Origin: Chelativorans multitrophicus
GTDB lineage: Bacteria > Pseudomonadota > Alphaproteobacteria > Rhizobiales > Rhizobiaceae
Reading direction: 5' to 3'
NCBI RefSeq assembly: GCF_011317445.1
Contig: NZ_JAAAPL010000007.1
Coordinates: 1 to 64,000, forward strand
Length of the DNA stretch: 64,000 bases
Position numbers and translations under genes: made by a program. This document shows positions 42,083 to 59,557 of this stretch, piece after piece. The notes under the pieces are model-generated. The model had not been told where the DNA came from, did no database searches, and saw only the letters and a list, made by a program, of their open reading frames with translations. Numbering within the stretch: the stretch's first letter is position 1; each line of letters starts with the position of its first letter.

Positions 42083-42095
42083 TGCGGACTGTCTC

Positions 42096-42487: not shown

Positions 42488-43522
42488 TTAGTTCGTCTTG
42501 ATCCTGTCCCATGCGCGGGTATAGAGGCGCAGATCCTTGCCCATATCCTCGAAGATCTGCAGCTTCGCGCGCACGTCCTGCGGCGGATTGATCGACGGAT
42601 TGCTTTTCAGCTCCTCGGGCAGGAGGGCCACCGCCTCGGTGTTGACGACGCCGTTGGTCAGCCGCGCCGAGTTCTTGGCCGCAACCTCGGGCCGCAGCAG
42701 GAACTGCATGAACAGCTTGGCATTGTGCGGGTTCGGCGCGTTCGCCAGCAGGCAGACGTCCTCCTGGTACATGGTCGCGCCTTCCTCCGGGATGACGAAC
42801 CCCAGCAGCTCGGGATTCTGCAGCGTGTTCAGGACGCCGCCGACATAGTAGTGCGAGGCCGCGGTGTCGCCGGCGGTCACCAGCGGGATCACGTCATAGC
42901 GGAAGGCGCCGATATTGGGCTTCTGCTCCATGATGAAGGCCTCGGCCTTGGCGATCTCGTCGGGATCGCGGGAGTTGACCGAGGCGCCGGTCATGATTAG
43001 TCCGACCCCCAGCGTCTCGCGCAGGTCGTCTAGCATGGTCACCTTGCCGGGATTATCCTTGGCGTATTCGAAGAACTGCTTCCACGACTTCAGCTCCGGA
43101 ATATGCGTCTTGTTGTAGAGGATGCCCACCGACCCCCAGGCATAGGGCAGGCAGAAGTCGCCGTTCGGATCCTCGTGCGAGCGCAGGGCCGCCTTGTCGA
43201 TGGCGTCCCACCCCGGCAACTGGTTGGGATGCGCCGGCTGCAACAGGCCGAGCTGCTGCATGATGTCGTGCATGTGCACCGAGGGCCAGACGAGGTCATA
43301 TCCAGAGGCGCCCGCCTGGATGCGGGCCAGCATCTCCTCGTTGGTGGAATAGGTGTCCAGCGTTACATCGACGCCGAATTCCTTGCTGAAATCGTCGATG
43401 ATCTCCGGGTTGATATATTCGCCCCAGTTGTAGAGCGCGAGCTTGCCCTCGGCTGAGGCCAAGTGCCCCGACAGCATCAGGATTGCTGCCGCGCCCGCGA
43501 TCCGGGTCAATAGTCGTTTCAT
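42488..43522 (-). CDS. Spermidine/putrescine-type ABC transporter substrate-binding protein
   Basis: 344 residues with a signal peptide ending ASA-EG. Typical PotD/PotF features are present: LALYNWGEYINPEIIDDFSKEFGVDVTLDTYSTNEEML, then PYAWGSVGILYNK, and a late QEDVCLLANAPNPHNAKLFMQFLL. It is followed by the DMFase-like genes and preceded by the two permease genes. The ligand may be a polyamine or an amide-capped amine (inference from neighbours). Confidence 0.9.
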   Translation of the reverse strand: MKRLLTRIAGAAAILMLSGHLASAEGKLALYNWGEYINPEIIDDFSKEFGVDVTLDTYSTNEEMLARIQAGASGYDLVWPSVHMHDIMQQLGLLQPAHPNQLPGWDAIDKAALRSHEDPNGDFCLPYAWGSVGILYNKTHIPELKSWKQFFEYAKDNPGKVTMLDDLRETLGVGLIMTGASVNSRDPDEIAKAEAFIMEQKPNIGAFRYDVIPLVTAGDTAASHYYVGGVLNTLQNPELLGFVIPEEGATMYQEDVCLLANAPNPHNAKLFMQFLLRPEVAAKNSARLTNGVVNTEAVALLPEELKSNPSINPPQDVRAKLQIFEDMGKDLRLYTRAWDRIKTN

Positions 43523-43546
43523 GTCGCATACTCCCCTTTGTTGTTT

Positions 43547-44389
43547 TCAAGACTTGCGATTGCGCAGCAGCATGCCGACGGTCGCCACCGCGAAAGAGAA
43601 CAGGATGATCACGACTGCGAGCGCGGTGATCTGCGGCCGCAGGCCCCTGCGCATCATCGCCAGGATGAGCAGCGGCAGCGTCTGCGAGCCGACGCCGGCA
43701 ATGAAATAGGTGATGACCACGTCGTCCAGCGAGATGATGAAGGCCAGCAGGAATCCACCCAGCACGCCCGGCATGATGAGCGGCAGCGTCACGCGGCGGA
43801 AGGTGGTCAAGGCCCCTGCCCCGAGATCGGCGGAGGCCTGTTCGAGCGTGGTGTCCATGCCTGCGAGCCGGCTCGACACCACGACGAAGACGTAGCTGGA
43901 CAGGAAGGTGACGTGGCCGATGACGATGGTCAGCAAGCTGAGATGAAAGCCGGCGCCGACGAAGAAGATCAGCAGCGCAATGCCCAAGACGATGTCGGGC
44001 ACGAGCATCGGCAGGAGCAGAAGCGCCTGGTAGAAGCGCTTGCCGGCGAATCTGTAGCGGGCCAGGGCGACGGCGGTCGCCGTGCCGATGAGGGTCGATA
44101 TGCTGGCCGCGGTGGTCGCCACCAGGAAGCTGTTCTTCACGACCTCGAAGATGCGCTCCGGGCTCTCGGTAAAGGCAACATCGAAAGTGCCTTCGACGCC
44201 GGCGCCGCCGAAGATGGTCGCGTACCAGTCCAACGTGAAGCCGGTCCAGACCGCCATGTTGATCGGATTGGCGTTGAAGGAATAGACGACGATCAAGGCC
44301 AGCGGCATGTAGAGGAAAGCGAGGAACAGGAACCCGTAGCTGTTGAACAGCGCCGACCAGAGCTTTCCCGGCCTGAACCCGCGAAACAT
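43547..44389 (-). CDS. ABC transporter permease, PotC-like
   Basis: 280 residues with six predicted TM helices. The permease EAA-like loop is EQASADLGAGALTTFRRVTLPLIMPGVLGG. It overlaps the preceding permease gene by 1 bp (both share base 44389), indicating co-translation. It forms the membrane channel with the PotB-like protein. Confidence 0.9.
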   Translation of the reverse strand: MFRGFRPGKLWSALFNSYGFLFLAFLYMPLALIVVYSFNANPINMAVWTGFTLDWYATIFGGAGVEGTFDVAFTESPERIFEVVKNSFLVATTAASISTLIGTATAVALARYRFAGKRFYQALLLLPMLVPDIVLGIALLIFFVGAGFHLSLLTIVIGHVTFLSSYVFVVVSSRLAGMDTTLEQASADLGAGALTTFRRVTLPLIMPGVLGGFLLAFIISLDDVVITYFIAGVGSQTLPLLILAMMRRGLRPQITALAVVIILFSFAVATVGMLLRNRKS

Positions 44390-45294
44390 CAGACTGCTCC
44401 CCTCGCTTGTGCCCTAGCGGTCCGGGTGAACTGGATCATCAGCACCAGGACGACCGAGGCCATGATGAGCAGCGCCAGCGCCGCCCCGAACGGCCAGTCG
44501 CGCGATTGCAGGAACGATCGTTCGATGAGGTTGCCAGTCATCTGCACCTTCGAGCCGCCGAGGAAGGCGGGCACGATGAAATTGCCGAGGGCCGGGATGA
44601 AGACGATGACCGATCCGCCGGCGATGCCGGGCGCCGTCAGCGGCAGGATGACACGCAGGAAAGTCTGCAGCGGCGTCGCGCCGAGATCCTGCGAGGCCCT
44701 GATCAGCGAATAGTCGAGCTTTTCGACATTCGCATAGATCGGCAGGAACATGAACGGCGTGAAGATGTAGACCATGCCCACGATCACCGCGAAATTGGAG
44801 AACAGCATGTCCAGCGGTTGCGCGATCAGCCCCGCGCTCTGGAGCAGCGTGTTGATGAAGCCGGTCGGGCGCAGCAGCAGCAGCCAGGCATAGATGCGCA
44901 CCAGCAGGTTCGCGAAGAAGGGCAGCATGATCAGGAAGAGGACGAAGGTCTTGCGCCGTTCGCTCATCCGGCTCACCCAGAAGGCTGCCGGGTAGCAGAT
45001 CAGCAGCGAGAACAGCACGGTGAGGCAGGCGACCTTCAGCGAGCCCAGAAAGATCGACAGGTAGATCGGATCGAATTCCTCGTAGTCGTTCAGCGGCCAG
45101 CCGAGGATGCGCCCGTAATTGTACGGATACCAGTTCCATTCGACGCCGCCGTAGAGGCCGGGCTCGAGGAAGCTGTAGACGACCATGATGCCGAGCGGGA
45201 TCAGGAAGAATACGCCCAGCATCAGCGTGATCGGCGCCAGCAGCAGGAGGAGCGCGCGCCGCCTGCGGGACCTGACGGTGTCGCCGGCGATCAT
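44389..45294 (-). CDS. ABC transporter permease, PotB-like
   Basis: 301 residues with six TM helices. The EAA-like cytoplasmic loop is RASQDLGATPLQTFLRVILPLTAPGIAGG. It starts 1 bp after the ATPase gene stop. The polyamine-type permease pair plus PotD-like and PotA-like proteins makes a complete importer. Confidence 0.9.
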   Translation of the reverse strand: MIAGDTVRSRRRRALLLLLAPITLMLGVFFLIPLGIMVVYSFLEPGLYGGVEWNWYPYNYGRILGWPLNDYEEFDPIYLSIFLGSLKVACLTVLFSLLICYPAAFWVSRMSERRKTFVLFLIMLPFFANLLVRIYAWLLLLRPTGFINTLLQSAGLIAQPLDMLFSNFAVIVGMVYIFTPFMFLPIYANVEKLDYSLIRASQDLGATPLQTFLRVILPLTAPGIAGGSVIVFIPALGNFIVPAFLGGSKVQMTGNLIERSFLQSRDWPFGAALALLIMASVVLVLMIQFTRTARAQARGAV

Positions 45295-45295
45295 C

Positions 45296-46399
45296 TCAGG
45301 CTCCCGCGGCCGCGATGAGGTGCGCGGCCGCCGGCGCGTAGGCGATGCGCACGGCGGCTCCGGCGGCGATGCCCGGCTCGTCGTCGGCCCGGTCGTGGCG
45401 GTGATGGGCCGTCACGGTGCGCCCGAAGCCCACGTCGACATGGATGTGCATGACGGACCCGACGAAGACCGTGTCCTTCACCGTGCCTTCCAGCACGCAG
45501 CCCGGCTCTCCCTGCCCCGGGCCGACGATGTGCAGGTACTCCGGCCGCAGCACCAGCTTGACGCTGTCGCCGACGGCGAAACGATCATCCTGCGAGGCCA
45601 GCCTGCGACCGTTCGCAGTCTCCACGACGACACGCTCGCGCTCACGCGAGACGACCTTTCCGGCAAACAGGTTCGAGGTGCCGACGAAGTTCGCCACAAA
45701 CTCGTTGGCGGGCGCATCGTAGATCTCGACGGGACTGCCGATCTGCTGCAACCTGCCTTGGGACAGAACGGCAATCCGGTCCGACATCGCCAGCGCTTCC
45801 TCCTGGTCGTGGGTGACGAAGATGAAGGTGATGCCGACGGAATGCTGGAGGTTCTTCAATTCCATCTGCATGGCCTCGCGCATCTTGCGGTCGAGCGCCG
45901 AGAGCGGCTCGTCCAGCAGGAGGACGCTCGGCTTCAGCACCAGCGAGCGCGCGAGCGCGACACGCTGCTGCTGACCGCCCGACAACTGGCTGGGACGGCG
46001 GTTCCCGAAGCCGGAGAGCCTCACCATCTCCAGCGCCTCGTCGACGCGCCGGTTGCGCTCCGGCTTCTTGACGCAGGCCACGTCGAGCCCGTAGCCGACG
46101 TTCTGCGTGATCGTCATGTGCGGGAAAAGGGCATAGTTCTGGAACACGGTGTTGAAGGGGCGCCGGTGCGCCGGCACCGCCCTCAGGCTCCGCCCGTGGA
46201 GGATGAGGTCGCCGCCGTCCAGGTCCTCGAAGCCCGCGATGCATTTCAAAAGCGTAGTCTTGCCGCAGCCCGAGGGTCCGAGCAGGGTCAGGAACTCGTT
46301 GTTGCGGACGTTGATCGTGACATCATCCAGCGCGCGCACCGATGTGCCTTCCGGCGTGCCGTAGGCCTTATGCACGGAAGCAATCTGCAAAAAGTCCAT
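45296..46399 (-). CDS. ABC transporter ATP-binding protein, PotA-like
   Basis: 367 residues. Walker A GPSGCGKTT, signature LSGGQQQRVALARSL, Walker B VLLLDEPLSALD and the H-loop THDQEEALAMSD are intact, followed by a C-terminal TOBE domain. It is first gene of the seven-gene minus-strand run, and its start lies 26 bp downstream of the motif at 46426-46443. Confidence 0.93.
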   Translation of the reverse strand: MDFLQIASVHKAYGTPEGTSVRALDDVTINVRNNEFLTLLGPSGCGKTTLLKCIAGFEDLDGGDLILHGRSLRAVPAHRRPFNTVFQNYALFPHMTITQNVGYGLDVACVKKPERNRRVDEALEMVRLSGFGNRRPSQLSGGQQQRVALARSLVLKPSVLLLDEPLSALDRKMREAMQMELKNLQHSVGITFIFVTHDQEEALAMSDRIAVLSQGRLQQIGSPVEIYDAPANEFVANFVGTSNLFAGKVVSRERERVVVETANGRRLASQDDRFAVGDSVKLVLRPEYLHIVGPGQGEPGCVLEGTVKDTVFVGSVMHIHVDVGFGRTVTAHHRHDRADDEPGIAAGAAVRIAYAPAAAHLIAAAGA

Positions 46400-46425
46400 T
46401 CAGCACCCTCTGGAGACTCTTATTG

Positions 46426-46443
46426 TTTTTATGGACGTAAAAA
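46426..46443. promoter_or_regulatory. Shared operator candidate, transporter/DmpA intergenic region
   Basis: The sequence is TTTTTA-TGGACG-TAAAAA, an imperfect inverted repeat (TTTTTA/TAAAAA arms). A near-identical 18-mer (16 of 18 positions) is at 49085-49102 before the aminotransferase. It lies between the divergent potA-like and dmpA-like genes. The likely ligand is the GntR/FCD protein encoded at the end of the operon. Confidence 0.65.
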
Positions 46444-46493
46444 TACATACTTTGGCCACCAGGACAAACATATTCTTCGCCACGGAGGCGGGA

Positions 46494-47612
46494 ATGACAA
46501 AAGGCCGGATGGAAGGGACGGGCGATCGGAGGGCGAAGGGACGGGCGCGGGAATTGGGCTGGCGCCTGCCCGGGACGACCGGACACGACAATGCGATCAC
46601 CGATGTCGCGGGCGTGTGCGTCGGTCTGGTAACGCTGAACGAGCCGGAGGGGCGCATCCGCACCGGGGTGACTGCGATCCTGCCTTTCGGGCACGAGCGC
46701 GAACCGCGCATCGCGCATGCCGGCATCTACGTCCTCAACGGAAACGGCGAGATGACGGGCGCGCACTGGATTCGCGATGCCGGCTATTTCCTCGGGCCGG
46801 TGTGCATCACCAACACCCACAGCGTCGGTATTGCCCATCACGCCGCGGTCAAATGGATGATCGCACAGTATGAGGAGGCGTTCCGCGACCATCATCTGTG
46901 GGCCATGCCGGTGATCGCCGAGACCTATGACGGCGTCCTCAACGACATCAACGGCCAGCATGTGCGCGAGGAGCACGTTCTCGCCGCGCTCGACGGCGCC
47001 CGGCCCGGCCCCGTCGCCGAAGGCAACACCGGCGGCGGCACCGGGATGATCTGCTACGAGTTCAAGGGCGGCACGGGCACGTCCTCTCGCCGCGTTGAGC
47101 TGGGAGGCGCTCACTACACGTTCGGCGTGCTCGTGCAGGCCAATCACGGCCGCCGCGACTGGCTGACGGTGCTGGGCGAATCCGTAGGCAGGCAGTTGGA
47201 CGATCATCGGCTGCTGGACCGCGAGCGCGGCTCGATCATCGTGGTGATCGCCACGGACGCGCCCTTGCGGCCGGGCCAGCTCGACCGGCTGGCGCGGCGC
47301 GGCGCCATCGGCATCGGCCGTTCCGGCACGCCGGGCGGCAACAGCTCAGGCGACATCTTCCTGGCCTTCAGCACCGCCAATGCCCGCCCGCTTCCCCAGT
47401 TCGACGCCCCCCTGCAAGGCTTCACCCACCTCAACGACGAGATCCTCGACCCCGCCTACGAGGCGGCGGTCGAGGCGACCGACGAGGCGATCCTGAACGC
47501 GATGCTGGCGGCCGAGGACACGACCACGCTCAAGCCGCCGGGCCTGACCTGCAAGGCGCTCGATGCAGCGGCCGTGACGGACATCCTGCGCCGGGCAGGA
47601 AAGAGCGGCTAG
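46494..47612 (+). CDS. P1/DmpA-family aminopeptidase (S58 peptidase)
   Basis: 372 residues, the same size as DmpA from Ochrobactrum (L-aminopeptidase, D-amidase/esterase). DmpA is made as a precursor that cleaves itself before a catalytic Ser; here the site is G246-S247 (RGSIIVVIATDAPLRPGQL). The N-terminal GHDNAITDVAGVCVGLVT and C-terminal GIGRSGTPGGNSSGDIFLAFST segments match. GGAGGCGGG precedes the ATG at 46494; the longer frame reads through the operator. It probably releases amino groups from small amides or beta-peptides in the pathway of the neighbouring importer and formamidase. Confidence 0.88.
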   Translation: MTKGRMEGTGDRRAKGRARELGWRLPGTTGHDNAITDVAGVCVGLVTLNEPEGRIRTGVTAILPFGHEREPRIAHAGIYVLNGNGEMTGAHWIRDAGYFLGPVCITNTHSVGIAHHAAVKWMIAQYEEAFRDHHLWAMPVIAETYDGVLNDINGQHVREEHVLAALDGARPGPVAEGNTGGGTGMICYEFKGGTGTSSRRVELGGAHYTFGVLVQANHGRRDWLTVLGESVGRQLDDHRLLDRERGSIIVVIATDAPLRPGQLDRLARRGAIGIGRSGTPGGNSSGDIFLAFSTANARPLPQFDAPLQGFTHLNDEILDPAYEAAVEATDEAILNAMLAAEDTTTLKPPGLTCKALDAAAVTDILRRAGKSG

Positions 47613-47614
47613 AG

Positions 47615-47690
47615 CATTTTGCAGCCGGACGGAATCGTCTGACGTTGCACAAATGCGGCTAAAACAAATCGATAGAGCGTCCGCCGGCGG
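47615..47690. repeat. Rhizobial-type dispersed intergenic repeat (tentative)
   Basis: The stretch opens with TAGAGCATTTTGCAGCCGG, continues with GACGGAATCGTC and AAATGCGGCTAAAACAAA, and ends in TAGAGCG. It resembles dispersed palindromic elements that I recall between genes in Rhizobiales. It lies between convergent dmpA-like and aminotransferase genes. Only a genome-wide copy count could confirm it. Confidence 0.35.
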
Positions 47691-47695
47691 CGCGA

Positions 47696-49069
47696 TCAGA
47701 GGCCGACGTCGGCGAAGACCTCCGCCATCGTATCCTCGAGGATGTCGAATATCTCGCCGATCTGGCCCTCGGTGATGATGAAGGGGGGCCCGAGCACGAT
47801 CGCCTGGCCGAGCGGGCGGCAGATCAATCCCTTTTCGAGGGCCTTGTTGGCGATGCGCTCCGGGATCCGGAGCGCCCCGTCCAGCGGGGCCTTGCTGTTC
47901 TTGTCGGCGACCAGCTCGACCGCCCCCATCAGGCCGACGCCGCGCGCTTCGCCGGCATGGTCGTGCCTGGCCAGCCGGTCCAATCCCGCGAGGAAGCGCG
48001 GGCTAACGCGGCGCACATTGTCGAGCAGGCCCTCCGTCTCGATCACCTCCAGCGCCTTCAGCGCGATCGCGCTGCCGAGCGGGTTGCCGCCGGACGTGAA
48101 GCCATGCGGGAATTCCTCGGCCGCCTCGCAGGCGCGCGTCAGCGCGTCGGCGAGTTCCGGCCCGAGGATGATCGCGCCCATCGGGAAATAGCCAGCGGTG
48201 ATGCATTTGGAGGCGACGATGGCATCGGGCTCGACATTGTACTTGTCGCCGCCCCACATCTCGCCGGTGCGGCCGAAACCGGTGATCACCTCGTCGGCGA
48301 TGAGCGGAATGCCGTATTTGCGCAGGATGGGCCTGATCGCCTCGAAATAGCCCCTAGATGGCGGGATGACCCCGCCCGCCCCCTGCACGGGTTCGGCGAA
48401 CATGCCGGCGATGGTGTCCGGCCCTTCCTTGATAATCAGCTCTTCCAGCTTGCGGGCGAGGCGTTGCGAAAACGCGGCCTCGCTCTCGCCGGGCTCTCCG
48501 TAGCGCCAGTGGTGGGGGCAGTCGGCATGCAGGAAGCCGGGCAGCGGCAGGCCGAATTCCGCATTGTAGGTCTTGCCCGTCATCGACGCCGTGGCGACCG
48601 TCACACCATGGTAGGCGTTGACGCGGGTGATTATCTTGCGGCGCTGCGGCTGGCCGTTGCGACGGTGCAGCAGCCACAACATCTTGACGACCGTGTCGTT
48701 CGCCTCGGAGCCAGAATTGGTGTAGTAGACGCGGCCGCTCGGGAAGGGCGAAATTTCGATGAGCTTTTCGGAGAGCGCCACCGTCGTATCCGCGATCCTG
48801 CCGAAAAAGGCATGATAGCCCGGAAACCTGCGGGCCTGGTCGCAGATCGCCTCGATCAGCCCCTTGTGATTGAAGCCGGCGACATTGTTCCAGAGGCCGG
48901 AATTGGCATCCATGTAGCTCTTGCCATGGACGTCGAAGACATGAATCCCTTCGCCATGGGTCAGCACGACCGGTCCGTTCTGATTTAGTGTTTCAAGATC
49001 CGTGAACCCATGGAAAACGTTTTCCTGGTCGCGCTGCTCCCAAGAATTCTTGGCGCGGTGATACAACAT
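47696..49069 (-). CDS. Class III (omega) aminotransferase
   Basis: 457 residues. Class III features are present: YTNSGSEANDTVVKMLWL, AYHGVTVATASMTG, PVQGAGGVIPP, LIADEVITGFGRTGEMWGG and the PLP lysine in VASKCITAGYFPMGA. The family includes omega-amino-acid or polyamine to pyruvate transaminases. The ATG at 49069 follows GGGAGACAGAG; the longer frame crosses the operator. The same operator motif as in front of the transporter operon sits 16 bp upstream, tying it to that pathway as the probable step that removes the freed amine. Confidence 0.9.
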   Translation of the reverse strand: MLYHRAKNSWEQRDQENVFHGFTDLETLNQNGPVVLTHGEGIHVFDVHGKSYMDANSGLWNNVAGFNHKGLIEAICDQARRFPGYHAFFGRIADTTVALSEKLIEISPFPSGRVYYTNSGSEANDTVVKMLWLLHRRNGQPQRRKIITRVNAYHGVTVATASMTGKTYNAEFGLPLPGFLHADCPHHWRYGEPGESEAAFSQRLARKLEELIIKEGPDTIAGMFAEPVQGAGGVIPPSRGYFEAIRPILRKYGIPLIADEVITGFGRTGEMWGGDKYNVEPDAIVASKCITAGYFPMGAIILGPELADALTRACEAAEEFPHGFTSGGNPLGSAIALKALEVIETEGLLDNVRRVSPRFLAGLDRLARHDHAGEARGVGLMGAVELVADKNSKAPLDGALRIPERIANKALEKGLICRPLGQAIVLGPPFIITEGQIGEIFDILEDTMAEVFADVGL

Positions 49070-49084
49070 CTCTGTCTCCCAATG

Positions 49085-49102
49085 TTTTTTTCGACGTAAA
49101 AA
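49085..49102. promoter_or_regulatory. Shared operator candidate upstream of the aminotransferase
   Basis: The sequence is TTTTTT-TCGACG-TAAAAA. It differs from the copy at 46426-46443 at two positions, and the flanks are also alike (TGT before, ACA after one base). It is 16 bp from the ATG, a position suited to repression. Confidence 0.65.
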
Positions 49103-49649
49103 GACACTCACACAACGATGAAATTTGGTCAAGCGGTGTGAGTGGATGCGCCTCTTTATACCAGATGGACGGCGCTTCACCTGCTCGCAGCTACATGGCT
49201 GCTAATCGATATGGCCGACGCAGCGCAGAGGCGTCGAACGACCGTCAGTCCCCGGTGCATGGCGGCACTGTAATTCAGATATTGAGTGCCGTTCCGGTCT
49301 AAACCTGGCTATGGACGCAAAGGTGCGAAAATAGATGGATCGAAGAACCGGTTTTTGTGGGTCTGACAGCGGGGCTTTGACGACGTTCTTGCACGGGGAA
49401 AAGTCCTGAATGAGATTGATGCCGCCCCGACGCTGATTTCAGGCTTCTCTGATGCGCTCCAGGTAGATGAGGCGGCGGATGTTGTTAGACGAGGTTGGCC
49501 ATGCCGATCTTCAAGATGCACACGCTCATGCCGCCGTTTGTCCGATAACCCCACACATCAGATACCGCCCCGGCGCTGCTCGTACGGGCACTCCATATAT
49601 TTGCCGGGTGTCGATTTGAACGTCACTGTTACGTTCGCCACACCACATA
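49103..49649. other. Gene-free interval with a transposase C-terminal relic
   Basis: On the minus strand around 49430-49530 the frames give GMSVCILKIGMANLV, then after a frameshift NIRRLIYLERIREA. This resembles the extreme C-terminus of IS5-type transposases. Nothing else coding is seen. The interval separates the GC-rich aminotransferase cluster from the less GC-rich riboswitch operon. Confidence 0.4.
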
Positions 49650-52631
49650 TTAGTATGAAGCAGTCGCCGGAGCATAGAGCCCGGCTTCCTCTATAATGCG
49701 CCGATGAAGAAGCATGTCGCGAATAAGTTCTGCATGGTATCGTTTGACGATCTCTTCCCTTCGTTTTCGGTCAGCCGTTGCTTCAATACCTCCGATCACG
49801 GATGCAATTCGCTCAGATAAACGACGCAGTTCTTTCAGAATCACGGACTGATCTGCAAATGCCAAAAACGATTCTGGGGTTGATCTACCTACGCCGGTCG
49901 GCAAACTTGTTCCGAGATTGACGTATCCTTCCGGAAGCGAACCTTTCACATTTCTCACCGCTTTGAACTGTATGACGTCAAAGATCTGATCGACCGCCTG
50001 CTTTGCACCCGCGACACGGGTCGGATGATCGGTATCCGCGGCGACGTGCGGAAGCAATTCGAGTTTTTGGGGGAACTGCTCATTCAATGCTAGATAAGGT
50101 AGTAACGGCCCACTTAGGGCGCCGCTTTCCGCGTCACTGAAAATGTCTGCATCGATTGCAGCATATCGGACCTTACCAGATTGCAAGGCCTCCTTGAGGG
50201 CGCATACGTCGACAAGCTCGCCTCGGTCGAAGTTGATCAGAATAGCGCCGTGCGCCAATGCATCTAACAACTCGGAACTGATCAGGCCGGCATTGCTAAA
50301 TTTACCGCTCGCCTTGTTCAGCCTACCCAGTCCAACATGCACTGAAAGAACATTAGCGCCCAAGGCAGCGTCCATCGGACTGGCAAAATACTCGTAGCCC
50401 CCGGCTTCAATCCATGCCTTATGATGCTCTCGTGCATAGACGCGTACATGCATTCCAAAAGCCTTTGCAAGCTTGGCAACCTCGCGTCCAATGTTGCCAT
50501 AGCCGAGAACGGTAAACTTTTGTCCTTCCAGCTTCGAGGTCGGAAAGTCCTTCAGATCTCTACCGGTATCGAACTTTCCTGCAATCGACCGCTGATGCAA
50601 TTCGTTTACAGGAAGATCAGGAACAACCTTAATGAGCGCCTTCATCGCCATTTGGGCTGTAGCCCGACTGTTTATACCGGGAGTATTCATGAGCGGGGCG
50701 TTGCCACCGTCGCCATCCGGGCCACCCCAAGAATCCGAGAGCATGTTCCCGGTTCCTGTACCGATGCGGACGCCGCCGAGTGGGAATAAGGACTGTTTAG
50801 GGATGAAGGTAGCCGCCGTAATAAGCGCATCATATTCTCCTTTTGCAGTGCATGCGAGGAGTTCGGTCTCCGTACTCAAGCTTGGCTGATAGAAGAAATG
50901 AATCTTGCCTTTCTCTAATTCCTGATTTCCTTCAATTGGACCGCAATGGAATACGCCCCCCTTACTTTGAATGTGTTCCTCCACTTCGCTGTGATCCGGA
51001 GCACCGTGATCGTCGAGGCGCAGTCCAATCAAGTCAGACACCAGAACCGTGTATGCCCGATCGGGATCATCCTTCCGGAGAGGGCCACTATCGACCGCTT
51101 TAAGTTCGCAGGTTTCGCCTTGACTGGCCAGCTCCTCCTCAAGCACCGATATCTTGGCTCGGCGGTAGGCATATTCCAGGTTCTCCAGAAGCAGGTGAAG
51201 ATCTTCCGGGTCGCGGATGCCACCTACCCAAGCGCGGTAGTCGCCGGGCATGCCGGGAAAAGCATTCACATATCGAGCAGCGTCCAGCCCCTCTTCGAAG
51301 TCGCCGTTTACGTGCGTTATGCCTTCATAACCCAGGAGTTGTTTGGACCGGGCTATGATGCGGGCATGAACCTCCTTGTCGCAGATATCCGGATCCTCGA
51401 CTTTCAAAAGCATCACGGCGGCACCGCGCCGCTCGGCTTCGGTGACAGTGAATTTCAGGAGAGACGAGCGTTTAATCCAGTCCGAAATAACTCGCCGATT
51501 TTGAACAGAACGGCGGTTCAAATCGCTAACAGAACCTACGCGGCGAGCAGCCTGCAGCAAACCGAACGTCGTTTCGGCAAAGGCTAACGCACTATACGTG
51601 TTGATCACGCCGCCGAGCATTCTGTCCTGATTTGCGTCGTAAAAGGGTCCGATGGCCACAGACCGCTTGCCGGTTAAAGGCGTTTTTGGATCGACAGAAG
51701 GTGCAAGCTTGAGCTGCCGGGGTATTGCCCAAGCAGGATCGTTCTGGTTGCTTTCGATGAGCCTCAGTGCTTCCGGCGTAAGAGAGATAACAAAATAGCC
51801 CGAGATGCCGCCGATCGCCTTTTGAAATGGCATGAACAAGCAGCACTTTGTGACAACTTGCCGGACGAACTCTTCCCCCCACGGCATAGCACCCAACATC
51901 GACGTGGCATCGAAAATCACGTGACGGCTTTCCGGATCGCGATCCAACCAAGTCACAAGCTCCTTGATCTCGGCCTGTGTATAGGAGTTGGCACCAGTGG
52001 TCTCATGGCCGACCCCGATAAACAAGCTGATGCCCAACGCTTCCAACTGATCCGCCGTTGGAATAGTGCCGTCAGTATCAGCGAAGTGAAGCCGATCCAC
52101 GTCACCATTCTTTACAAATTTTTGCATCTCAATTAGCTGTGTCGCCCAGGATTGACGAAAGAACCCAGCGCTGACGGCCTTCGACGATTCAGGTCTTGGC
52201 GTGTCCACGTAAACCTGCTGCTTTAACTGGTTGGGATTCATGAGATGCATGATGGCAACGGTAAAGCCGCTGTGGCCGCCGCCTAGGCCGACCGCCATCA
52301 GATTCTGTGACGGGAACTCGAAATACTGATGTATTGACCTCATCATATCCTTCAGAATTTTATCAGCTGGATAACCTCGATGCATGCTGCGCGCTATTTC
52401 GGCCGTGGTGAACGGACCAATATCGTTGCCCTTATCGTCGACCTTTCGATAGTTCATTTCGAGCCATCTATCGAACTCGACCCGGCGTTGCCTGCTATGA
52501 ACCTCATCGAGCGTAGCGTCAGTGATGGGACCGACGCCGAAAAACGGATTTGACGGCGCTTTGGGAGGGCCTGGACGGGTCAGATTTCTTTCTTTGTCGA
52601 GTTGGTCCCTCAATGTCGAAGTCGTCGCCAT
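49650..52631 (-). CDS. Fused class V aminotransferase (SerC-like) / D-2-hydroxyacid dehydrogenase (SerA-like)
   Basis: 993 residues in two catalytic halves. Residues 25-500 are a phosphoserine-aminotransferase-like PLP domain, with GHETTGA (209-214), FDATSMLGAMPW (D241, PLP ring contact) and FQKAIGG (PLP lysine K271). Residues 525-910 are a 2-hydroxyacid dehydrogenase. The nucleotide loop is GYGNIG (710-715), followed by VYAREHH where NAD enzymes usually have Asp, hinting at NADP. Active-site candidates are R803 (NFDRGELVD), E835 and H862 (LLPHVAADT). A helical tail of about 100 residues replaces the ACT domain of many SerA proteins. SerC-SerA order suggests transamination coupled to reduction of the keto acid, for example serine to hydroxypyruvate to glycerate or the glyoxylate equivalent (inference). 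The base composition is lower in GC than its neighbours. It lies 36 bp downstream of the GcvT-like gene, under a glycine riboswitch. Confidence 0.8.
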   Translation of the reverse strand: MATTSTLRDQLDKERNLTRPGPPKAPSNPFFGVGPITDATLDEVHSRQRRVEFDRWLEMNYRKVDDKGNDIGPFTTAEIARSMHRGYPADKILKDMMRSIHQYFEFPSQNLMAVGLGGGHSGFTVAIMHLMNPNQLKQQVYVDTPRPESSKAVSAGFFRQSWATQLIEMQKFVKNGDVDRLHFADTDGTIPTADQLEALGISLFIGVGHETTGANSYTQAEIKELVTWLDRDPESRHVIFDATSMLGAMPWGEEFVRQVVTKCCLFMPFQKAIGGISGYFVISLTPEALRLIESNQNDPAWAIPRQLKLAPSVDPKTPLTGKRSVAIGPFYDANQDRMLGGVINTYSALAFAETTFGLLQAARRVGSVSDLNRRSVQNRRVISDWIKRSSLLKFTVTEAERRGAAVMLLKVEDPDICDKEVHARIIARSKQLLGYEGITHVNGDFEEGLDAARYVNAFPGMPGDYRAWVGGIRDPEDLHLLLENLEYAYRRAKISVLEEELASQGETCELKAVDSGPLRKDDPDRAYTVLVSDLIGLRLDDHGAPDHSEVEEHIQSKGGVFHCGPIEGNQELEKGKIHFFYQPSLSTETELLACTAKGEYDALITAATFIPKQSLFPLGGVRIGTGTGNMLSDSWGGPDGDGGNAPLMNTPGINSRATAQMAMKALIKVVPDLPVNELHQRSIAGKFDTGRDLKDFPTSKLEGQKFTVLGYGNIGREVAKLAKAFGMHVRVYAREHHKAWIEAGGYEYFASPMDAALGANVLSVHVGLGRLNKASGKFSNAGLISSELLDALAHGAILINFDRGELVDVCALKEALQSGKVRYAAIDADIFSDAESGALSGPLLPYLALNEQFPQKLELLPHVAADTDHPTRVAGAKQAVDQIFDVIQFKAVRNVKGSLPEGYVNLGTSLPTGVGRSTPESFLAFADQSVILKELRRLSERIASVIGGIEATADRKRREEIVKRYHAELIRDMLLHRRIIEEAGLYAPATASY

Positions 52632-52667
52632 GGTATATTATTCCTCGTGCCTAAAGTTGCTTAGCTT

Positions 52668-53192
52668 TTAATACTTAAGGTCAAACTGCCGATGATCGAT
52701 CTGCCAGAAGAAGAAGCGATCACTATTGTCATGGCGACGTTGGGAGAGAAGGACTGAGTCCAACCACGTCCTAATGAGACCACCCTGAAGGGGTATGACG
52801 TTGCCTTCTTCCGGCAGACTGATCTTAGTTCCTGCCTCTGCGCCCCGAATGGCGATGAGAACCCGATCGAGCGGACTGACGCTAAGGTCAAGCCCTTTGG
52901 CAAGCTTGCTCAGATGTGCCTCGTCCTGTGCCGCACAACCCGGATCGGACACCAGCATGAAGTGATCGGCACGAAGGCGGATGACAGCCATGTCATTAAG
53001 ACGACTGGCATTGTCATTGAATTGACAAAAATGCGATGGCGGCGCCATCGAATCGAATGGGCAGGCGCTGTGGAGATCAACGCTCGCCGGACAAGTGAGC
53101 GGCACGGGCCAGCCGATAAAGGCGACGAAACAGACCCCTGACTGCTGATGCAGATCTTGCAGTACTGAGTGGTTCGTTTCTTCGCCTGCCAT
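52668..53192 (-). CDS. Short GcvT/folate-binding-like protein under a glycine riboswitch
   Basis: 174 residues from the ATG at 53192, with a TGGAGAAG ribosome site. The middle, NDMAVIRLRADHFMLVSDPGCAAQDEAHLSKLAKGLDLSV then DRVLIAIRGAEA, resembles the GcvT stretch 'vyRlgeDrflLVvNaa..ekDlawL..' and 'lialQGP.A'. It is less than half the length of GcvT and lacks the GYTGEDGYE part, so it may be a regulatory or partial folate-binding module, or related to sarcosine oxidase gamma. The longer frame would read through the riboswitch. It is first gene of a two-gene operon with the fusion enzyme. Confidence 0.55.
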   Translation of the reverse strand: MAGEETNHSVLQDLHQQSGVCFVAFIGWPVPLTCPASVDLHSACPFDSMAPPSHFCQFNDNASRLNDMAVIRLRADHFMLVSDPGCAAQDEAHLSKLAKGLDLSVSPLDRVLIAIRGAEAGTKISLPEEGNVIPLQGGLIRTWLDSVLLSQRRHDNSDRFFFWQIDHRQFDLKY

Positions 53193-53238
53193 AACTTCTC
53201 CAGAAAAGCACGAAGCCGGCCGCACCGTGCAGCCATTC

Positions 53239-53430
53239 CGTGCCCCTCTGTCTGAAGCCTGAGAGACTCGCGCTGCCGGATAGGGCTCCGATAGCACTTA
53301 CACCTTCGGCGCGGGATCTTTGACAGGCCCCGTCTTTCCAGAGTGTCGCCCTGCTTACGGTTCTTTTGCCTGAGAGATTTTGGGCGTATTCCCCTTCGGC
53401 GGCAGCCGTGCGCTGCTCTCTCCCGCAACC
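53239..53430 (-). ncRNA. Tandem glycine riboswitch
   Basis: Read on the minus strand, aptamer 1 (about 53430-53335) has GGGAGAGAGC, GCCGCCGAAGGGGAA, ATCTCTCAGGCAAAAGAACC and ACACTCTGGAAAG. Aptamer 2 (about 53335-53239) has GCGCCGAAGGTGTAAG, GTCTCTCAGGCTTCAG and ACAGAGGGGCA. These are the conserved elements of the cooperative two-aptamer glycine riboswitch. It ends about 47 bp before the ATG at 53192. In most bacteria it turns on glycine cleavage or export when glycine is high; here it controls a GcvT-like protein and the aminotransferase-dehydrogenase fusion. Confidence 0.92.
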
Positions 53431-54373
53431 AGTTGAGGCCATTTAACCTCGCCGACGGAGAAATGCATAACCTACTCGCTGCAACTTGTCACCTGCACGC
53501 GACACCGCGGCTCACGATTATTGTTAGCCTCTTAGATCGTGTCGCTGTGTTCTGGCCCGATCACGTCAGCTTTCGACCTCCAAAGCCTGCCAAGTTGCTC
53601 GACAGTTTGTTAGCCGCGGAGTTGCCACGTACTAGGTACTGCCGCCACAATCTCGAAACGTTTCGGCTCCTCGGCTACCAATTCAATGTGCATCCCTGAG
53701 CTGATTTCGTCCAACAGTGGCCTCAGGCCGCATTGCGAGGCGTGGACAATGCCAACCCGCTGCTAGAGCTGATCAGGGTAATATTCCGGCTCGATAGGTC
53801 AGATTGACCCATTCCAACAGCTTGCGCACTCCAGCCTCGCGCCTGCAACTTGATCTGCCCGATAGCAATGTTCTTCTCGACCGAGGATGCGGAAAACCAA
53901 ACCGACCTTGTGCCGCAGGCGGTCTATATCGACGCCCGGTCCCGAGACATCGCAACCCACAGCGCGTTCAGACAGTACAATAGCATACTTTTCTCCGATC
54001 GCTTCGCCCCCGGTCATCGCGGACAAAGCGAGAATCCGTTAGGTTCTGTTTGCAATCTTCGACAACACCCCCCGTTATGGCCCTGCAGCACCTTGGTGGT
54101 TGAGACACGTAAAACGAAGGATCGGGCACTGCTTCGCTGCTCCGACATCGGTCCGGGCCTTTCCCGCCGTCTCGGAAGAGCGGTCTTTTGAGCGGTTCTG
54201 GCGCTGCGATGACACACGCGCGCGCCAGCGGCGGTTCCGGCCTCAGCCTGCCGGTCGTTATCCGTCTCCGATCTTTTCATCAGAGTACTATCGAGGCGGG
54301 AGCGGGCATTGCCAGCCTATCAGGTCAGGATCGCCTATCGGACGCCGCACCGGCGCTCTCCGTGCTTGAGAAC
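53431..54373. other. About 940 bp without a recognised gene
   Basis: Several short frames exist on both strands, none with a recognisable motif or a good ribosome site. The segment lies between the less GC-rich riboswitch operon and the DUF6455 gene with its NnrR box. It may be decayed DNA at a recombination boundary. The promoter of the riboswitch transcript must lie in its first 100 bp, but I see no clear -35/-10 pair. Confidence 0.4.
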
Positions 54374-55822: not shown

Positions 55823-58800
55823 TCAAGGCTTGAGCGTGGCTCTCATTGATTCCCGTTCCAGGATCTGCTCGCTCTCGGTCTGCCTCGCGACAAACTCACC
55901 ATGCCGGACGCTCGAGTACACCTTCATCACGGCATCCAGTCCGTCCTGATCGGACTGCGAAACGGAAGGATGCGTGACCTGCCGATTCGCAATTGATCCT
56001 CGTGCAAGCTCTCTTGCGCCTTCGTCGCCGAATCGGGACTCGACCGATTTCTTGAGCGCTGAGATCTCTTCGTTGACCGCTGGATCAAACGAAACCGTCT
56101 TGAATACCTCGGCCCGCTCCTGATTGTCCTTGGCCTGGGCAACTTTCGCCAGCATCGCTTTCGCCTCCTCCGACACATCCCTCACCTCGACCGCGTCGGC
56201 CCTCATCTGACGTTCGACATCGTAACGATAAGTCTGCACGGAACGATGTTCGAACTCTGCGGTACGCACGACATTCGGTCCTATCGCGGCGGCACCTCGT
56301 TCGGCCGCTCCGCGCTCTTCGCGCGCCTTGGCGCCGGCGAAAAACCCTTCTCGGCCGCGAAGCTCACCAAGCAGGCTGAAGTCGGCCGAGATACGCTGTG
56401 CAGCGCTCGTTGGTCCGTCGCGTGCGATGATGTCGTCGAGACGCCGTTCCGCCGACTTCGGATCACGGTAGGCTGCCTCGAGGTAAATCGAGAGGGCCTG
56501 GCGCTCACGCTGCACATCTGCGTCCCGACCGATGGCAGCAGCAATGCCGGCGTCGTCCAATGCTCGCCCAAGACTGTCGCGACGAATGCCGTCTAGACCG
56601 ACGGCTTGGAACGCAGGGATGAGCACCCGCCTCTCATCGCTTGCTCGATCCCCAGTGCTGCTCGCAGGCTTTTCGTCTCCACTAGTCCCGGTAGGTTGCC
56701 GACGGCCGGCGTCATCCGAAACGATGAGCTCCTCCGGGGCCGAGCGCTGCCGTGTGGCTTTCGCGTCTGGCTCGTCCTTTCTCGCCGCCGGCTGCTCCAC
56801 TGCGCTTGCCCCACCCCTCCCGTCGCTCCGTCCGCCGCTTCCCTTCGCTATAACGCCCGTTTCCATCTCCGACCTCCGTCGATTCTGACCAGACTCTGCG
56901 CGCGCCCACTCCTCGTTCGCGACCGGACCGGTCGCCTGGCGCCGTCCCTCCCCTTCACGGCCCTTCTCCGCCACAGCACCCGCTTCCGCGGCTCGCAACT
57001 CGCCCAGCCTCACCTTCTGCTCCGCGCTGAGTTCATCATGGGTCGCGTAGGCCACCGAAGCCGACTTGATCTCGTTGCGTCCGATCTGCCGCGCAAGTTG
57101 CCTGAGATCGCGCGCCGTCTCGGTTGCTACAAAAATCGTAGCGCTCTCGCGCTGCCTGGTCAGCGCGACATAGCTTGAGGCTGCACGCCAATGATGCGTG
57201 TGCAGGAGATAGGTATGGTCAAGCGTCTTGCCCTGCCCCTTGTAGATTGTGCCGGCATAGCCGTGCCTAAACCCTGAAAACTCCGACGCGTACCACTCAA
57301 CTTTTCTTCCTTCCCGACCCGCTGCAGCATCGAGCGTCACACCGATCCGGCCAAAGTTCCTGTCGATTCTGTCAATGACGCCGGCATTGCCGTTATAGAT
57401 GCCGGCTCCCTTTGCCGTGTCGGTGAACTGCACCCGGTCACCGACCGCGAAGGGCGCCTCCCCATGTTTGGTGGTGAACACAAAGTCCTCGCCGAGTTCG
57501 CCTCGCTCCTTGCGCACCGCTCGCAGATCCTTGTTCAGGACATCGACATCCTTGTTGGTGTAGGCGAACACAAAGCGCGACGATGAAGGATGATCGTGCG
57601 AATCCTTGGCCCACTGCTCGACCAGCTTGCCCCGCAACTCTTCTTGCTTTGAAGTCCAGACTATCGCCTTGTTACGAGCAAACGATCGAAGGGCGTCCTC
57701 GAAGCGTCCATCTGACAGATCGCGGGCCGCCGCGCGCTGCCAATCCACCTTCTGGCGCGTAACCTGCGTGATCTCCGCCGAGCCATGCTCTTTCTTTAAC
57801 TCGGTGAATAACCCGCCGCGTTCGATCGAACCAAGCTGCCGGTCGTCGCCGGCCAGGATGACCTTGGCGCCATACAGTCGGGCCTCGCGCAGCACCTCGC
57901 CCGTAACCTTGGCGTCCATCATCGCCGCCTCATCAACGACAACAAGAGTGCGCCGATCCCACTGCACGCGTCCGTTCTTCAACCGAAACAGCTCCGCATG
58001 AACGGTTGAGCTTCGACTAAGCCCCGCACGGCCAAAACCGGAAGAGCCAAAATCCGTACGGCCCAGGCCTGGGCCAAAGCCCTCGTCTTTCATCGCCTGC
58101 GCCACGGCATTGGTCGGCGCCAGGCCGATAACACGATAGCCCGCCGCCTCATGCGCCTCACGGATCGAACCAAGGACAAAACTTTTTCCCGTGCCCGCAC
58201 GTCCTTCGATGATTTTCAGCCCGCCCGAACCCGTCGCATGATCGAACGCCGCAAGCTGGTCCGCCCGCAACGCGCGCGCGGCCGTTACGCGCTGCCTGGC
58301 GACATCCCCCAGATTTCGGTGTGATCCACCGACCACTTGCCGACCATCGGCAAGAGCCAAAACCTCCTGATCCCGCACAGCCCGCGTCGTCCAGCGCCCG
58401 ACACCGTCTCCTGTATCCCGGTCATGCAATGCCAGCACATCGCCTCGGCCGAGCACCTTGGCCTTCACCTCTGACCGCTCGCCCTCGTCGCGAATATGCT
58501 TTTTCAAATGCCGATCGAGATCATACTCGGAAAAACTCGCCTGGTTGCGCGTCAGCACGCCAAGCACGTGCTCGGGATCGCGCGCCGCCTGTTCGTTCGC
58601 CTTGCGGATCTGCTCGGCACGCACATTCGCCTCAGCCTCTGGCACCCGCATGCGGATCGGCCCAATATGTTCCTGCGGCACCGCGCTCGTCGCGTCGACC
58701 CGGATCGAAAGGCCCTGTTCGGCAAAATACCGGTTCTGGTGATCTCGCCACAATTGGCCCCAGGCTTCGCCTTCCGCCACGATGGCTCGCCCCCCGCCAC

Positions 58801-59311
58801 GCTTGATGACGGGATCGAGATCGCGCGCCTTCTTCGCCGCAAAACCATCCTCTCCCAAACGTCGCGTCGTGATCAGCAAATGCGCATGATAATTGGCCCG
58901 CTCCCCTTCGCTCTCCGCCCCGTGCGGTGAATGCACGTCCAGCTGCACCGCCAGGCCTTTGGAGACAAAATGCTCGATCGCGAACGACCGTGCCAGTTCG
59001 ACGCGATCGTCATGACCGAGCTCGGTATTCGCCGGCAGCGCCAGCACGATCTCGCGGGCGAGTTGCGCGTCCTTGCGCTTCTCCATGGCCTCTGCTGCAT
59101 TCCACAGCGTGTCGCTCGACGACAGCTCGGCAGGTGCTCCTTCCGGCAGCAGCACCTCGTGATGCTCCGGGGCTTCGCGGTGCTTGAAATAGAACACCTC
59201 GCCGGTGCGTTCGGCCCGGATCGCCTCACGGCCGCTATAGGCGGCTGAGCGTACGGCGCTGCCGCCGTCGGCACGGGAAATGTAGCGGGCACGGGCAAAG
59301 GCGATGGCCAT
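55823..59311 (-). CDS. traA: Ti-type conjugative relaxase-helicase TraA
   Basis: 1162 residues from the ATG at 59311 (MAIAFARARYISRADGG). The N-terminal MobA/MobL relaxase region has RSAAYSGREAI, the early active-site region, and the metal-binding motif NYHAHLLITTR. The middle holds an SF1 helicase with Walker A EGRAGTGKSFVLG and Walker B LVVVDEAAMMD, plus a late SF1 motif (GYAGTIYKGQGKTLDHTY). The C-terminal 350 residues are charged and low in complexity. It nicks oriT and unwinds the transferred strand. It is divergent from traD and traG, the gene layout around oriT in Ti-like systems. Confidence 0.92.
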   Translation of the reverse strand: MAIAFARARYISRADGGSAVRSAAYSGREAIRAERTGEVFYFKHREAPEHHEVLLPEGAPAELSSSDTLWNAAEAMEKRKDAQLAREIVLALPANTELGHDDRVELARSFAIEHFVSKGLAVQLDVHSPHGAESEGERANYHAHLLITTRRLGEDGFAAKKARDLDPVIKRGGGRAIVAEGEAWGQLWRDHQNRYFAEQGLSIRVDATSAVPQEHIGPIRMRVPEAEANVRAEQIRKANEQAARDPEHVLGVLTRNQASFSEYDLDRHLKKHIRDEGERSEVKAKVLGRGDVLALHDRDTGDGVGRWTTRAVRDQEVLALADGRQVVGGSHRNLGDVARQRVTAARALRADQLAAFDHATGSGGLKIIEGRAGTGKSFVLGSIREAHEAAGYRVIGLAPTNAVAQAMKDEGFGPGLGRTDFGSSGFGRAGLSRSSTVHAELFRLKNGRVQWDRRTLVVVDEAAMMDAKVTGEVLREARLYGAKVILAGDDRQLGSIERGGLFTELKKEHGSAEITQVTRQKVDWQRAAARDLSDGRFEDALRSFARNKAIVWTSKQEELRGKLVEQWAKDSHDHPSSSRFVFAYTNKDVDVLNKDLRAVRKERGELGEDFVFTTKHGEAPFAVGDRVQFTDTAKGAGIYNGNAGVIDRIDRNFGRIGVTLDAAAGREGRKVEWYASEFSGFRHGYAGTIYKGQGKTLDHTYLLHTHHWRAASSYVALTRQRESATIFVATETARDLRQLARQIGRNEIKSASVAYATHDELSAEQKVRLGELRAAEAGAVAEKGREGEGRRQATGPVANEEWARAESGQNRRRSEMETGVIAKGSGGRSDGRGGASAVEQPAARKDEPDAKATRQRSAPEELIVSDDAGRRQPTGTSGDEKPASSTGDRASDERRVLIPAFQAVGLDGIRRDSLGRALDDAGIAAAIGRDADVQRERQALSIYLEAAYRDPKSAERRLDDIIARDGPTSAAQRISADFSLLGELRGREGFFAGAKAREERGAAERGAAAIGPNVVRTAEFEHRSVQTYRYDVERQMRADAVEVRDVSEEAKAMLAKVAQAKDNQERAEVFKTVSFDPAVNEEISALKKSVESRFGDEGARELARGSIANRQVTHPSVSQSDQDGLDAVMKVYSSVRHGEFVARQTESEQILERESMRATLKP

Positions 59312-59557
59312 GCCGACAGAATGCCGCATCTGAAACCCAAGCGCAAGCAAGCATTCGAAGAATGCATATTGCGTCTGCACATATCCGTCACATGGTATCT
59401 AGACAGGGGGCGGCAGCCATGGCAAATTGAAGACAGCGCGCGTCAGGCCCAAAGGCCGGTCGACCGCACCAGCCGAGCGATTCAGGGTTTGAAGGCGCCC
59501 TTCCCGGCTGGCAAACTCCACACGGGCTTGGGAAGACGGAAACGGAGACATCCGCCA
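59312..59557. other. Divergent traA/traD intergenic region, candidate origin of transfer
   Basis: In Ti-like systems oriT lies between the divergent tra operons, exactly this position. The minus strand at 59495-59502 reads AAGGGCGC, as in the nick region of the RSF1010/Ti type as I recall it. A perfect inverted repeat GCATTC-GAA-GAATGC is at 59351-59365. The two signals are suggestive only. Confidence 0.4.

Follow-up and report, generated by a model that had tools for sequence, protein, structure and literature searches.

What is a tandem glycine riboswitch doing ahead of a gene whose product resembles SerC joined to SerA, and what would such an enzyme make? The question is raised by a stretch of 64,000 nucleotides from Chelativorans multitrophicus (contig NZ_JAAAPL010000007.1, positions 1 to 64,000; hereafter the window), in which one minus-strand run comprises, from 5′ to 3′, a tandem glycine riboswitch, a 174-codon GcvT-like frame (gcvT′) and, 36 bases beyond the gcvT′ stop, a 993-codon fusion frame. 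A sequence-only reading had seen here a glycine-controlled enzyme coupling transamination to reduction. Judged from the comparisons reported below, its observation is right and its chemistry plausible, and its regulatory claim is limited to one genome. The interpretation we tentatively favor is that a captured gcvT leader now precedes a bifunctional enzyme, would be turned on by glycine and would provide an outlet for glycine from serine to D-glycerate. The run has the following features.

53486..53492, minus strand: GTGACAA, a −35-like box common to gcv leaders of the genus and family
53348..53435, minus strand: glycine riboswitch aptamer 1 (Rfam RF00504, 59.3 bits)
53238..53351, minus strand: glycine riboswitch aptamer 2 (Rfam RF00504, 51.7 bits)
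53201..53250, minus strand: putative expression platform (minimum-free-energy fold, from which a mechanism is suggested)
52668..53192, minus strand: gcvT′, a truncated, decayed gcvT frame of 174 codons, open throughout (ATG at 53192)
53034..53050, minus strand: terminator-like hairpin within gcvT′ (7 bp stem, T5; not significant against shuffles)
49650..52631, minus strand: SerC-like/SerA-like fusion gene, 993 residues (open frame, family alignment)
51117..52631, minus strand: N-terminal half, residues 1–505, class V pyridoxal phosphate (PLP) aminotransferase of the SerC lineage with D241 and K271 (hhalign, AF2, Foldseek)
49653..51053, minus strand: C-terminal half, residues 527–993, 2-hydroxyacid dehydrogenase (2HADH) fold (Pfam PF02826, alignments, Foldseek)

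Homology of the leader to a gcvT operon

Both aptamers exceed the RF00504 gathering score of 32 bits, aptamer 1 being found in the whole-window Rfam scan (E 1e-9), which gave this aptamer only, and aptamer 2 in a scan of the whole genome; the two-aptamer riboswitch described earlier is thus real, with its structure kept. The genome holds a second tandem glycine riboswitch (60.8 and 55.1 bits) preceding a 364-codon gcvT. The window leader matches this gcv leader at 81% over 189 bases (BLASTN), with 161 of the 183 aligned riboswitch bases identical, and gcvT′ aligns with residues 3–153 of the genome's own GcvT, matching at 50/116 residues and 58% of bases. By homology, riboswitch and GcvT-like frame together make up the 5′-terminal part of a gcvT operon. 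As to the 174-residue GcvT-like protein of the sequence-only reading, the frame and a Pfam match are there, and what fails is its standing as a normal working partner, the gene being decayed and truncated: GCV_T scores 28.6 bits against a cut-off of 25.6 and covers only profile positions 80–150 of 255, while the full-length GcvT model NF010093 gives 47.4 of 459 bits with 67 residues matched, far short of a full-length protein. No relative of gcvT′ was found beyond the source genome at E 1e-15 in 297 genomes of the order, and the search of plasmids returned complete gcvT genes only, at 32–37%. Codon-position differences between gcvT′ and the genome's own gcvT number 53, 28 and 64 of 116 at first, second and third positions.

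The same disparity between RNA and protein is seen across a comparison set of 29 glycine-riboswitch loci (L105–L133), gcvT being obtained from all of these except L124. In the 14 closest loci (L112, L115–L123, L125, L126, L128 and L129; 12 from the genus and two from the family) the riboswitch is 82–90% identical to that of the window, GcvT being 39–47% identical to gcvT′; the corresponding values against the genome's own pair are 87–95% and 69–87%. Two more distant members of the family gave riboswitch and GcvT identities of 86% and 32% to the window and 84% and 55% to the own copy (L131), and of 75% and 34% to the window and 80% and 45% to the own copy (L133). The other 12 rows, from other families, share 72–82% with the window riboswitch and 29–45% with gcvT′, the latter over as few as 28 residues. 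The RNA has therefore stayed close to its relatives, whereas the protein part has decayed.

Retention of the RNA fold was assessed with a consensus structure built from 14 other leaders (the own copy and 13 more), leaving out the window and the outlier L131. Standard pairs are found in the window for 67 of the 79 consensus pairs with window bases on both sides, four having changed on both sides, compared to 70–80 of 76–82 for the other leaders when each was left out singly. When the 81 differences between the window and the own leader (272 bases compared) were placed at random, 46 ± 4 pairs were retained (maximum 59), and none of 2000 trials attained 67. By this measure, the window RNA is somewhat looser than the working copies, yet far from random. 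As the RNA is undecayed while gcvT′ has decayed, the riboswitch is most likely still functional.

The CAGAG stretch forming the 3′ strand of P1 in aptamer 2 can alternatively pair with a stretch over the gcvT′ ribosome site in the minimum-free-energy fold (z-score of the whole window leader fold, −1.87), and the P1 strand and a GCACG block of the platform are held in common with the leaders of the genus. Such an alternative pairing would fit a glycine-ON switch. The window shares the GTGACAA box with 14 of the 15 other leaders compared; it is absent from L135, an odd second tandem glycine riboswitch in genome G013 of the same genus (G013:C6:114500-120500, at about 1265–1455), near which no gcvT was found (L124). 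The first long frame there, some 180 bases downstream (1639–2325), encodes an L,D-transpeptidase (YkuD), and a link between glycine and the cell wall is possible at that locus.

A conserved fusion family

The fusion frame has 993 codons without an internal stop, in the same run as the riboswitch as previously noted, and matches Pfam 2-Hacid_dh_C (E 5.6e-24) and NCBIfam SerC (E 1.7e-18). Relatives share 53–74% identity, and an alignment of 29 members has a mean column identity of 73%, with D241, K271, R803 and H862 identical throughout (29/29). The other 28 rows have 291 invariant columns, from which the window sequence deviates at nine, none of them one of these four residues, and other rows at 0–7. 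Compared to L085, the closest relative found, codon-position differences are 211, 125 and 601 over 992 codons; they fall mostly at third positions, and the fusion is therefore under protein-level selection.

The family is scattered. Relatives were found at 22 loci on genome contigs (L022 having the C-terminal half only, and several running off contig ends) and in 31 plasmid records with at least 80% coverage. Among 397 genomes of the order, 38, the source included, match at E 1e-100, of which 27 are approximately full length, two are truncated or split at contig ends and nine have the C-terminal half only. A class-wide draw gave three matching genomes of 385, again counting the source; within the genus the source alone of 16 genomes matches at E 1e-100, the other 15 being without the fusion. 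Bearers include rhizobial plasmids, Labrys, Kiloniella and Rhodobacteraceae and, outside the Alphaproteobacteria, metagenome-assembled genomes (MAGs) of Nitrosomonas, SAR324 and Oceanospirillaceae. Where annotated, full-length plasmid copies are named ‘NAD(P)-dependent oxidoreductase’. A published description of the fusion was not found in the literature searched, which took in few subscription papers, and as far as the searches show this is a conserved family without an assigned function.

That this enzyme family as such goes with a glycine riboswitch is not supported: no riboswitch reached the gathering score in an Rfam scan of 60 relatives' loci. Six of these loci hold one half only, four have fewer than 120 bases upstream and three repeat a record, so that approximately 50 loci, three repeats included, have the fusion and some 500 or more upstream bases (L073–L084 lay outside the scan). 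The pairing of riboswitch and fusion looks private to the source genome.

The C-terminal half also occurs alone. A tree of this half comprised 53 rows from fused genes, repeats among them, and 15 loci where it stands alone, L049 and L076 being omitted as too short. A single origin of the fusion was considered and rejected, as the tree needs at least five state changes, three of them forced by well-supported branches; the split between fused and alone forms is therefore not one clean event, long branches leaving the position of several alone rows unsure. L049 (6986–8734), on an Ensifer adhaerens plasmid, is a version with the N-terminal half only (582 residues, 70% identical), annotated as a hypothetical protein.

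The two halves of the enzyme

The N-terminal half was aligned to 25 SerC proteins of the order with hhalign, giving probabilities of 98.5% in local (residues 21–496) and 99.5% in global mode. Using its AF2 model (pLDDT 84.8, pTM 0.85), Foldseek returned SerC from M. tuberculosis as the best match (3vom, TM(target) 0.76), followed by 3-hydroxykynurenine, alanine:glyoxylate and serine:pyruvate aminotransferases, while a sequence search of the PDB gave no credible relative (four matches, E 0.33–0.76). The class V fold, the PLP lysine K271 and the SerC-type aspartate D241 are all present (29/29; Foldseek), which bears out the aminotransferase half claimed from the sequence. The half falls far below the SerC equivalog cut-offs, with 60.6 of 448.2 bits for TIGR01365 and 66.8 of 477 bits for NF002841. 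One H-R pair of SerC is retained as H84-R85 in all 29 members; the second, in the GHYR motif, aligns with ARYV, so that R453 and V/I455 lie opposite the histidine and arginine. Both pairs presumably hold the substrate phosphate in SerC.

The C-terminal half has a clear 2HADH fold (Pfam, Foldseek), the NAD-binding domain PF02826 scoring 84.9 bits against a cut-off of 25.1, and lies far below the SerA/phosphoglycerate dehydrogenase equivalog TIGR01327 (70.6 of 454 bits). It was aligned with SerA and six other 2HADHs of the same genome using MAFFT, with hhalign as a second alignment. The arginine of the IRSAT motif in SerA, which we take to contact the substrate phosphate, aligns in MAFFT with residue 605 (alanine in 25, valine in three and threonine in one of 29 members); hhalign sets the IRSAT stretch opposite a gap, so the local alignment is unsure, and no arginine aligns in either method. 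In the loop after the second strand A733-R734 and H737 are invariant in all 29, where SerA has an aspartate. The dehydrogenase half had been called intact, and its R803 and H862 are indeed retained in 29/29; its canonical glutamate is not, as the position of the FENEP glutamate falls at residue 834 in both alignments and is occupied by alanine in 16 members, proline in five, other residues in seven and glutamate in one only (L047), the window being among the 28 without it. The full Arg-Glu-His triad of 2HADHs, as given in PMC6303947, is thus absent from nearly the whole family.

According to the same source, lack of the loop aspartate suggests a preference for NADPH, and one type of 2HADH with lysine in place of the histidine and no glutamate is active, so activity of the C-terminal half would be possible despite the loss of the glutamate (PMC6303947). 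On the strength of the Ala-Arg loop and the lack of an arginine at the SerA phosphate site, the C-terminal half probably reduces an unphosphorylated keto acid with NADPH, in most members through a changed proton relay. The AF2 model of the full-length fusion is moderate (pLDDT 76, pTM 0.61), and active-site distances were therefore not read from it. With both halves real and conserved, transamination followed by reduction, as first proposed, appears the likeliest chemistry.

Genomic context and substrate

The fusion and gcvT′ differ in composition from neighboring genes. GC at the fusion falls to 52–55% from 62–69%, for which reason the fusion looks inserted. GC at third codon positions (GC3) is 0.59 in gcvT′ and 0.56 in the fusion, close to each other, compared to 0.72 in the own gcvT, 0.82 and 0.85 in the class III aminotransferase and S58 peptidase genes listed below, 0.69 in a TraA-like frame and 0.75–0.87 in three other fusion genes. 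The simplest story would be that leader and fusion coexisted for some time and arrived with mobile DNA. Between the TraA-like relaxase frame (55823–59380, identified by eye) and the riboswitch, DNA at 55030–55657 matches transposase genes of rhizobial plasmids, some named IS4. On the other side of the fusion the window contains the following genes.

47696..49180, minus strand: class III aminotransferase, next after the fusion in its direction of reading (Pfam PF00202; NCBIfam NF004767, 540 bits, cut-off 517)
46431..47612, plus strand: S58 (P1/DmpA-type) peptidase (Pfam PF03576)
42488..46399, minus strand: Pot-type ABC transporter comprising an ATPase, two permeases and a binding protein (Pfam)

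Clues to the substrate were sought around the relatives. At L017 a DUF4147-MOFRL protein begins 80 bases after the fusion match, above the Pfam cut-off and matching NCBIfam glycerate 2-kinase models below theirs. L167 in G018, which coincides with L037, has what looks like an operon for, in this order, an FAD oxidoreductase, an aldehyde dehydrogenase, the C-terminal half alone and a DUF4147-MOFRL protein. A tblastn search for glycerate kinase at 59 loci (52 with the fusion, seven with one half) found L017 and L037 only; at 12 half-only loci it found L167 and, with a weak match approximately 7 kb away, L173. The source genome encodes one protein with a MOFRL domain, of the glycerate 2-kinase type. 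Elsewhere, an FAD oxidoreductase carrying GcvT domains is encoded upstream at L042 of P. aminovorans, L048 has a BCCT transporter nearest to a glycine betaine model and just below its cut-off, and many other fusion loci have unrelated neighbors. Though few, these clues would favor serine, hydroxypyruvate and D-glycerate together with one-carbon or glycine metabolism. Serine to glycerate, one of the conversions suggested earlier, is the best-supported guess, with glycerate 2-kinase at two loci, the NADPH-type loop and no phosphate-site arginine pointing to it.

A conserved operon partner was also looked for, and neighbor clustering gave no gene widely common at a fixed place beside the fusion: large clusters were frames overlapping the fusion itself, a cluster from 11 loci (L045_449 type) lay at scattered distances, and smaller groups comprised synteny among close relatives and a protein of approximately 474 residues following the fusion in Nitrosomonas and SAR324 MAGs (L009 3989–5413, L010 4412–5830, L011 9012–10442 and L012 3037–4350). 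This protein has no meaningful Pfam match; its invariant HNEVK..AN and SFDFDN blocks look, to our eye, kinase-like.

The window's own cluster at 39809–49180 (class III aminotransferase, S58 peptidase, Pot-type ABC transporter and DMFase-like hydrolase) recurs on Pseudorhizobium flavum plasmid 2 (permease 88%) and in Rhodobacteraceae M382, where a glutamine synthetase gene separates aminotransferase and peptidase. The window peptidase is 56% and 58% identical to peptidases beside a stand-alone C-terminal half at L043 and L050, and the transporter proteins are 50–63% identical to the sets found there.

A possible route for glycine

The favored interpretation is built on the gcv leader homology, the decay of gcvT′, the kept RNA structure, the conservation of both halves, the NADPH-type loop, the lack of a phosphate-site arginine and the MOFRL protein. 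On the substrate, direction, glycine response, promoter, manner of capture and read-through from leader to fusion, we infer the following. The fusion gene, probably with mobile DNA, would have arrived downstream of the captured beginning of a gcvT operon, comprising the promoter-like box, the riboswitch and the first part of gcvT. The gcvT part then decayed and the riboswitch did not, and leader expression is most likely still turned on by high glycine. Binding of glycine would let P1 of aptamer 2 form, freeing the gcvT′ start; ribosomes trailing the polymerase along the dead frame would then let transcription continue to the fusion. Such translation-coupled read-through would account for the frame of gcvT′ having stayed open. 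In the enzyme, the N-terminal half would transaminate an amino acid, most likely L-serine, to the 2-keto acid hydroxypyruvate, which the C-terminal half would reduce with NADPH to the D-2-hydroxy acid D-glycerate, and a glycerate 2-kinase could pass this into glycolysis. The net effect would be an outlet from glycine through serine, by serine hydroxymethyltransferase, to glycerate. Taken as a complete chain, with the riboswitch recruited by gcvT 5′ capture, glycine-gated translation of the dead frame, read-through into the fusion and drainage of glycine through serine to D-glycerate, the proposal is unlikely to hold in every link.

Alternative explanations

The riboswitch and gcvT′ could instead be passengers, a fossil of a gcv operon, with the fusion using its own promoter and showing no glycine response, an account that we regard as somewhat unlikely. 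The arrangement is seen once and at none of 60 relatives' loci, a terminator-like hairpin lies within gcvT′, a GAGGA resembling a ribosome site precedes the ATG of the fusion (by eye), and the RNA could have been kept while serving a complete gcvT, as the codon-position pattern of gcvT′ allows. What speaks against the passenger account is that the RNA structure was retained while gcvT′ decayed, that gcvT′ and fusion are alike in composition, and that the only same-strand promoter-like site within 52550–53700 lies upstream of the riboswitch, with none between riboswitch and fusion, although this is a weak test. Ordinary serine synthesis in one chain, with the SerA half oxidizing 3-phosphoglycerate and the SerC half making phosphoserine, is very unlikely. 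Phosphoserine transaminase and phosphoglycerate dehydrogenase are among the nearest named models, H84-R85 is kept, and serC and serA lie side by side in the source genome, so that their fusion is easily imagined. Against it, both halves score far below the curated cut-offs, canonical SerC above its cut-off is retained in all 20 fusion-bearing genomes tested, and the C-terminal half has an NADPH-type loop, no phosphate-site arginine and no glutamate in 28/29 members, with GHYR changed to ARYV in the N-terminal half. Since SerC is kept and the phosphate-site arginine, the glutamate and the loop all depart from SerA, the fusion probably does not serve ordinary serine synthesis. The two reactions are reversible for such enzymes, and a D-glycerate or other D-hydroxy acid might be oxidized and then aminated to an L-amino acid, as non-phosphorylated serine synthesis; glycerate kinase neighbors mark the metabolite only and not the direction. 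As an NADPH-type loop would favor reduction in vivo and glycine-ON control would be unfavorable to serine making, this reverse use is hardly to be expected.

It is distinctly unlikely that the fusion acts with the adjoining S58/ABC cluster in taking up and degrading some amine- or peptide-like compound, the amino acid then not being serine. The idea draws on the similarity of the peptidase and four transporter proteins (50–63%) to those adjoining a stand-alone C-terminal half in Shinella (L043) and Sinorhizobium (L050), and on an unannotated relative of the C-terminal half (61% over 427 residues) that adjoins such a cluster in Shinella sp. HZN7 (L181, 11514–12788). However, five of six stretches around such clusters (L179–L184) have no fusion relative at E 1e-5, among them the nearest copy, on the P. 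flavum plasmid, with its aminotransferase, glutamine synthetase, peptidase, transporter and DMFase-like genes; no peptidase match at E 1e-25 was found among the fusion loci searched, and the GC fall makes the fusion look inserted. Several observations nevertheless weigh against the proposed glycine outlet itself. None of the 60 relatives' loci has a riboswitch, so the fusion family needs no glycine control. Part of the gcvT′ divergence arose in a still-working protein, since second codon positions differ least; the RNA may have been kept during this working period too, and some riboswitch changes may be older than the capture. A terminator-like hairpin lies within gcvT′, although the number of such hairpins in the region (two on both strands, against a shuffle mean of 0.9) is not significant. 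The canonical catalytic glutamate is, by alignment, missing in 28/29 members, and the nine deviations at 291 columns are the most of any row, so that selection is perhaps slightly relaxed in the window. With regard to the substrate, the retained H84-R85 means that an anionic side chain may belong to the real one, the S58/ABC cluster may suggest one other than serine, and glycerate kinase is near few loci, 1/52 with the fusion and 1/7 with one half (counts that include repeats and short contigs).

Relation to known systems

The N-terminal half shares with phosphoserine aminotransferase SerC (TIGR01365 serC_2 / PRK03080) the fold, the PLP lysine, the aspartate of ‘DATS’, the H-R pair and a full-length profile alignment, and differs in scoring far below the cut-off, in its changed GHYR site, in the attached reductase and in being present in addition to SerC. 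Similarly, the C-terminal half has the fold, the GxGNIG motif and the triad arginine and histidine of SerA and of glyoxylate/hydroxypyruvate reductases, and lacks the glutamate in 28/29 members and the IRSAT arginine; it further has an insertion before the histidine, the NADPH-type loop and a predicted helical C-terminal tail with no ACT-domain match. The leader resembles the tandem RF00504 riboswitches of gcvT in having both aptamers above the cut-off and platform blocks in common with leaders of the genus, whereas it precedes a decayed gcvT and the fusion rather than a complete gcvT operon. Such riboswitches had been taken as normally controlling gcv genes or transporters, to which there are exceptions in the serine pathway: one Clostridium species alone has serC and serA under glycine riboswitch control, serine genes being rare in the regulon (PMC3766115), and serC is under one in a metagenome (PMC2211319). 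As in the window, relatives of serine-pathway enzymes are thus placed behind a glycine riboswitch; unlike it, the available parts of these papers describe named serC or serA genes, and neither a fusion nor a gcvT remnant.

If the fusion couples transamination to reduction, a single protein would lead from an amino acid to a D-hydroxy acid. The window can also be regarded as a natural experiment on how riboswitches gain targets, with a structurally kept switch standing before a decayed gene and a new one. Glycine-gated read-through by way of gcvT′ would, if true, mean that a gene remnant had served to rewire a riboswitch in nature, and the enzyme would offer a new one-protein route.

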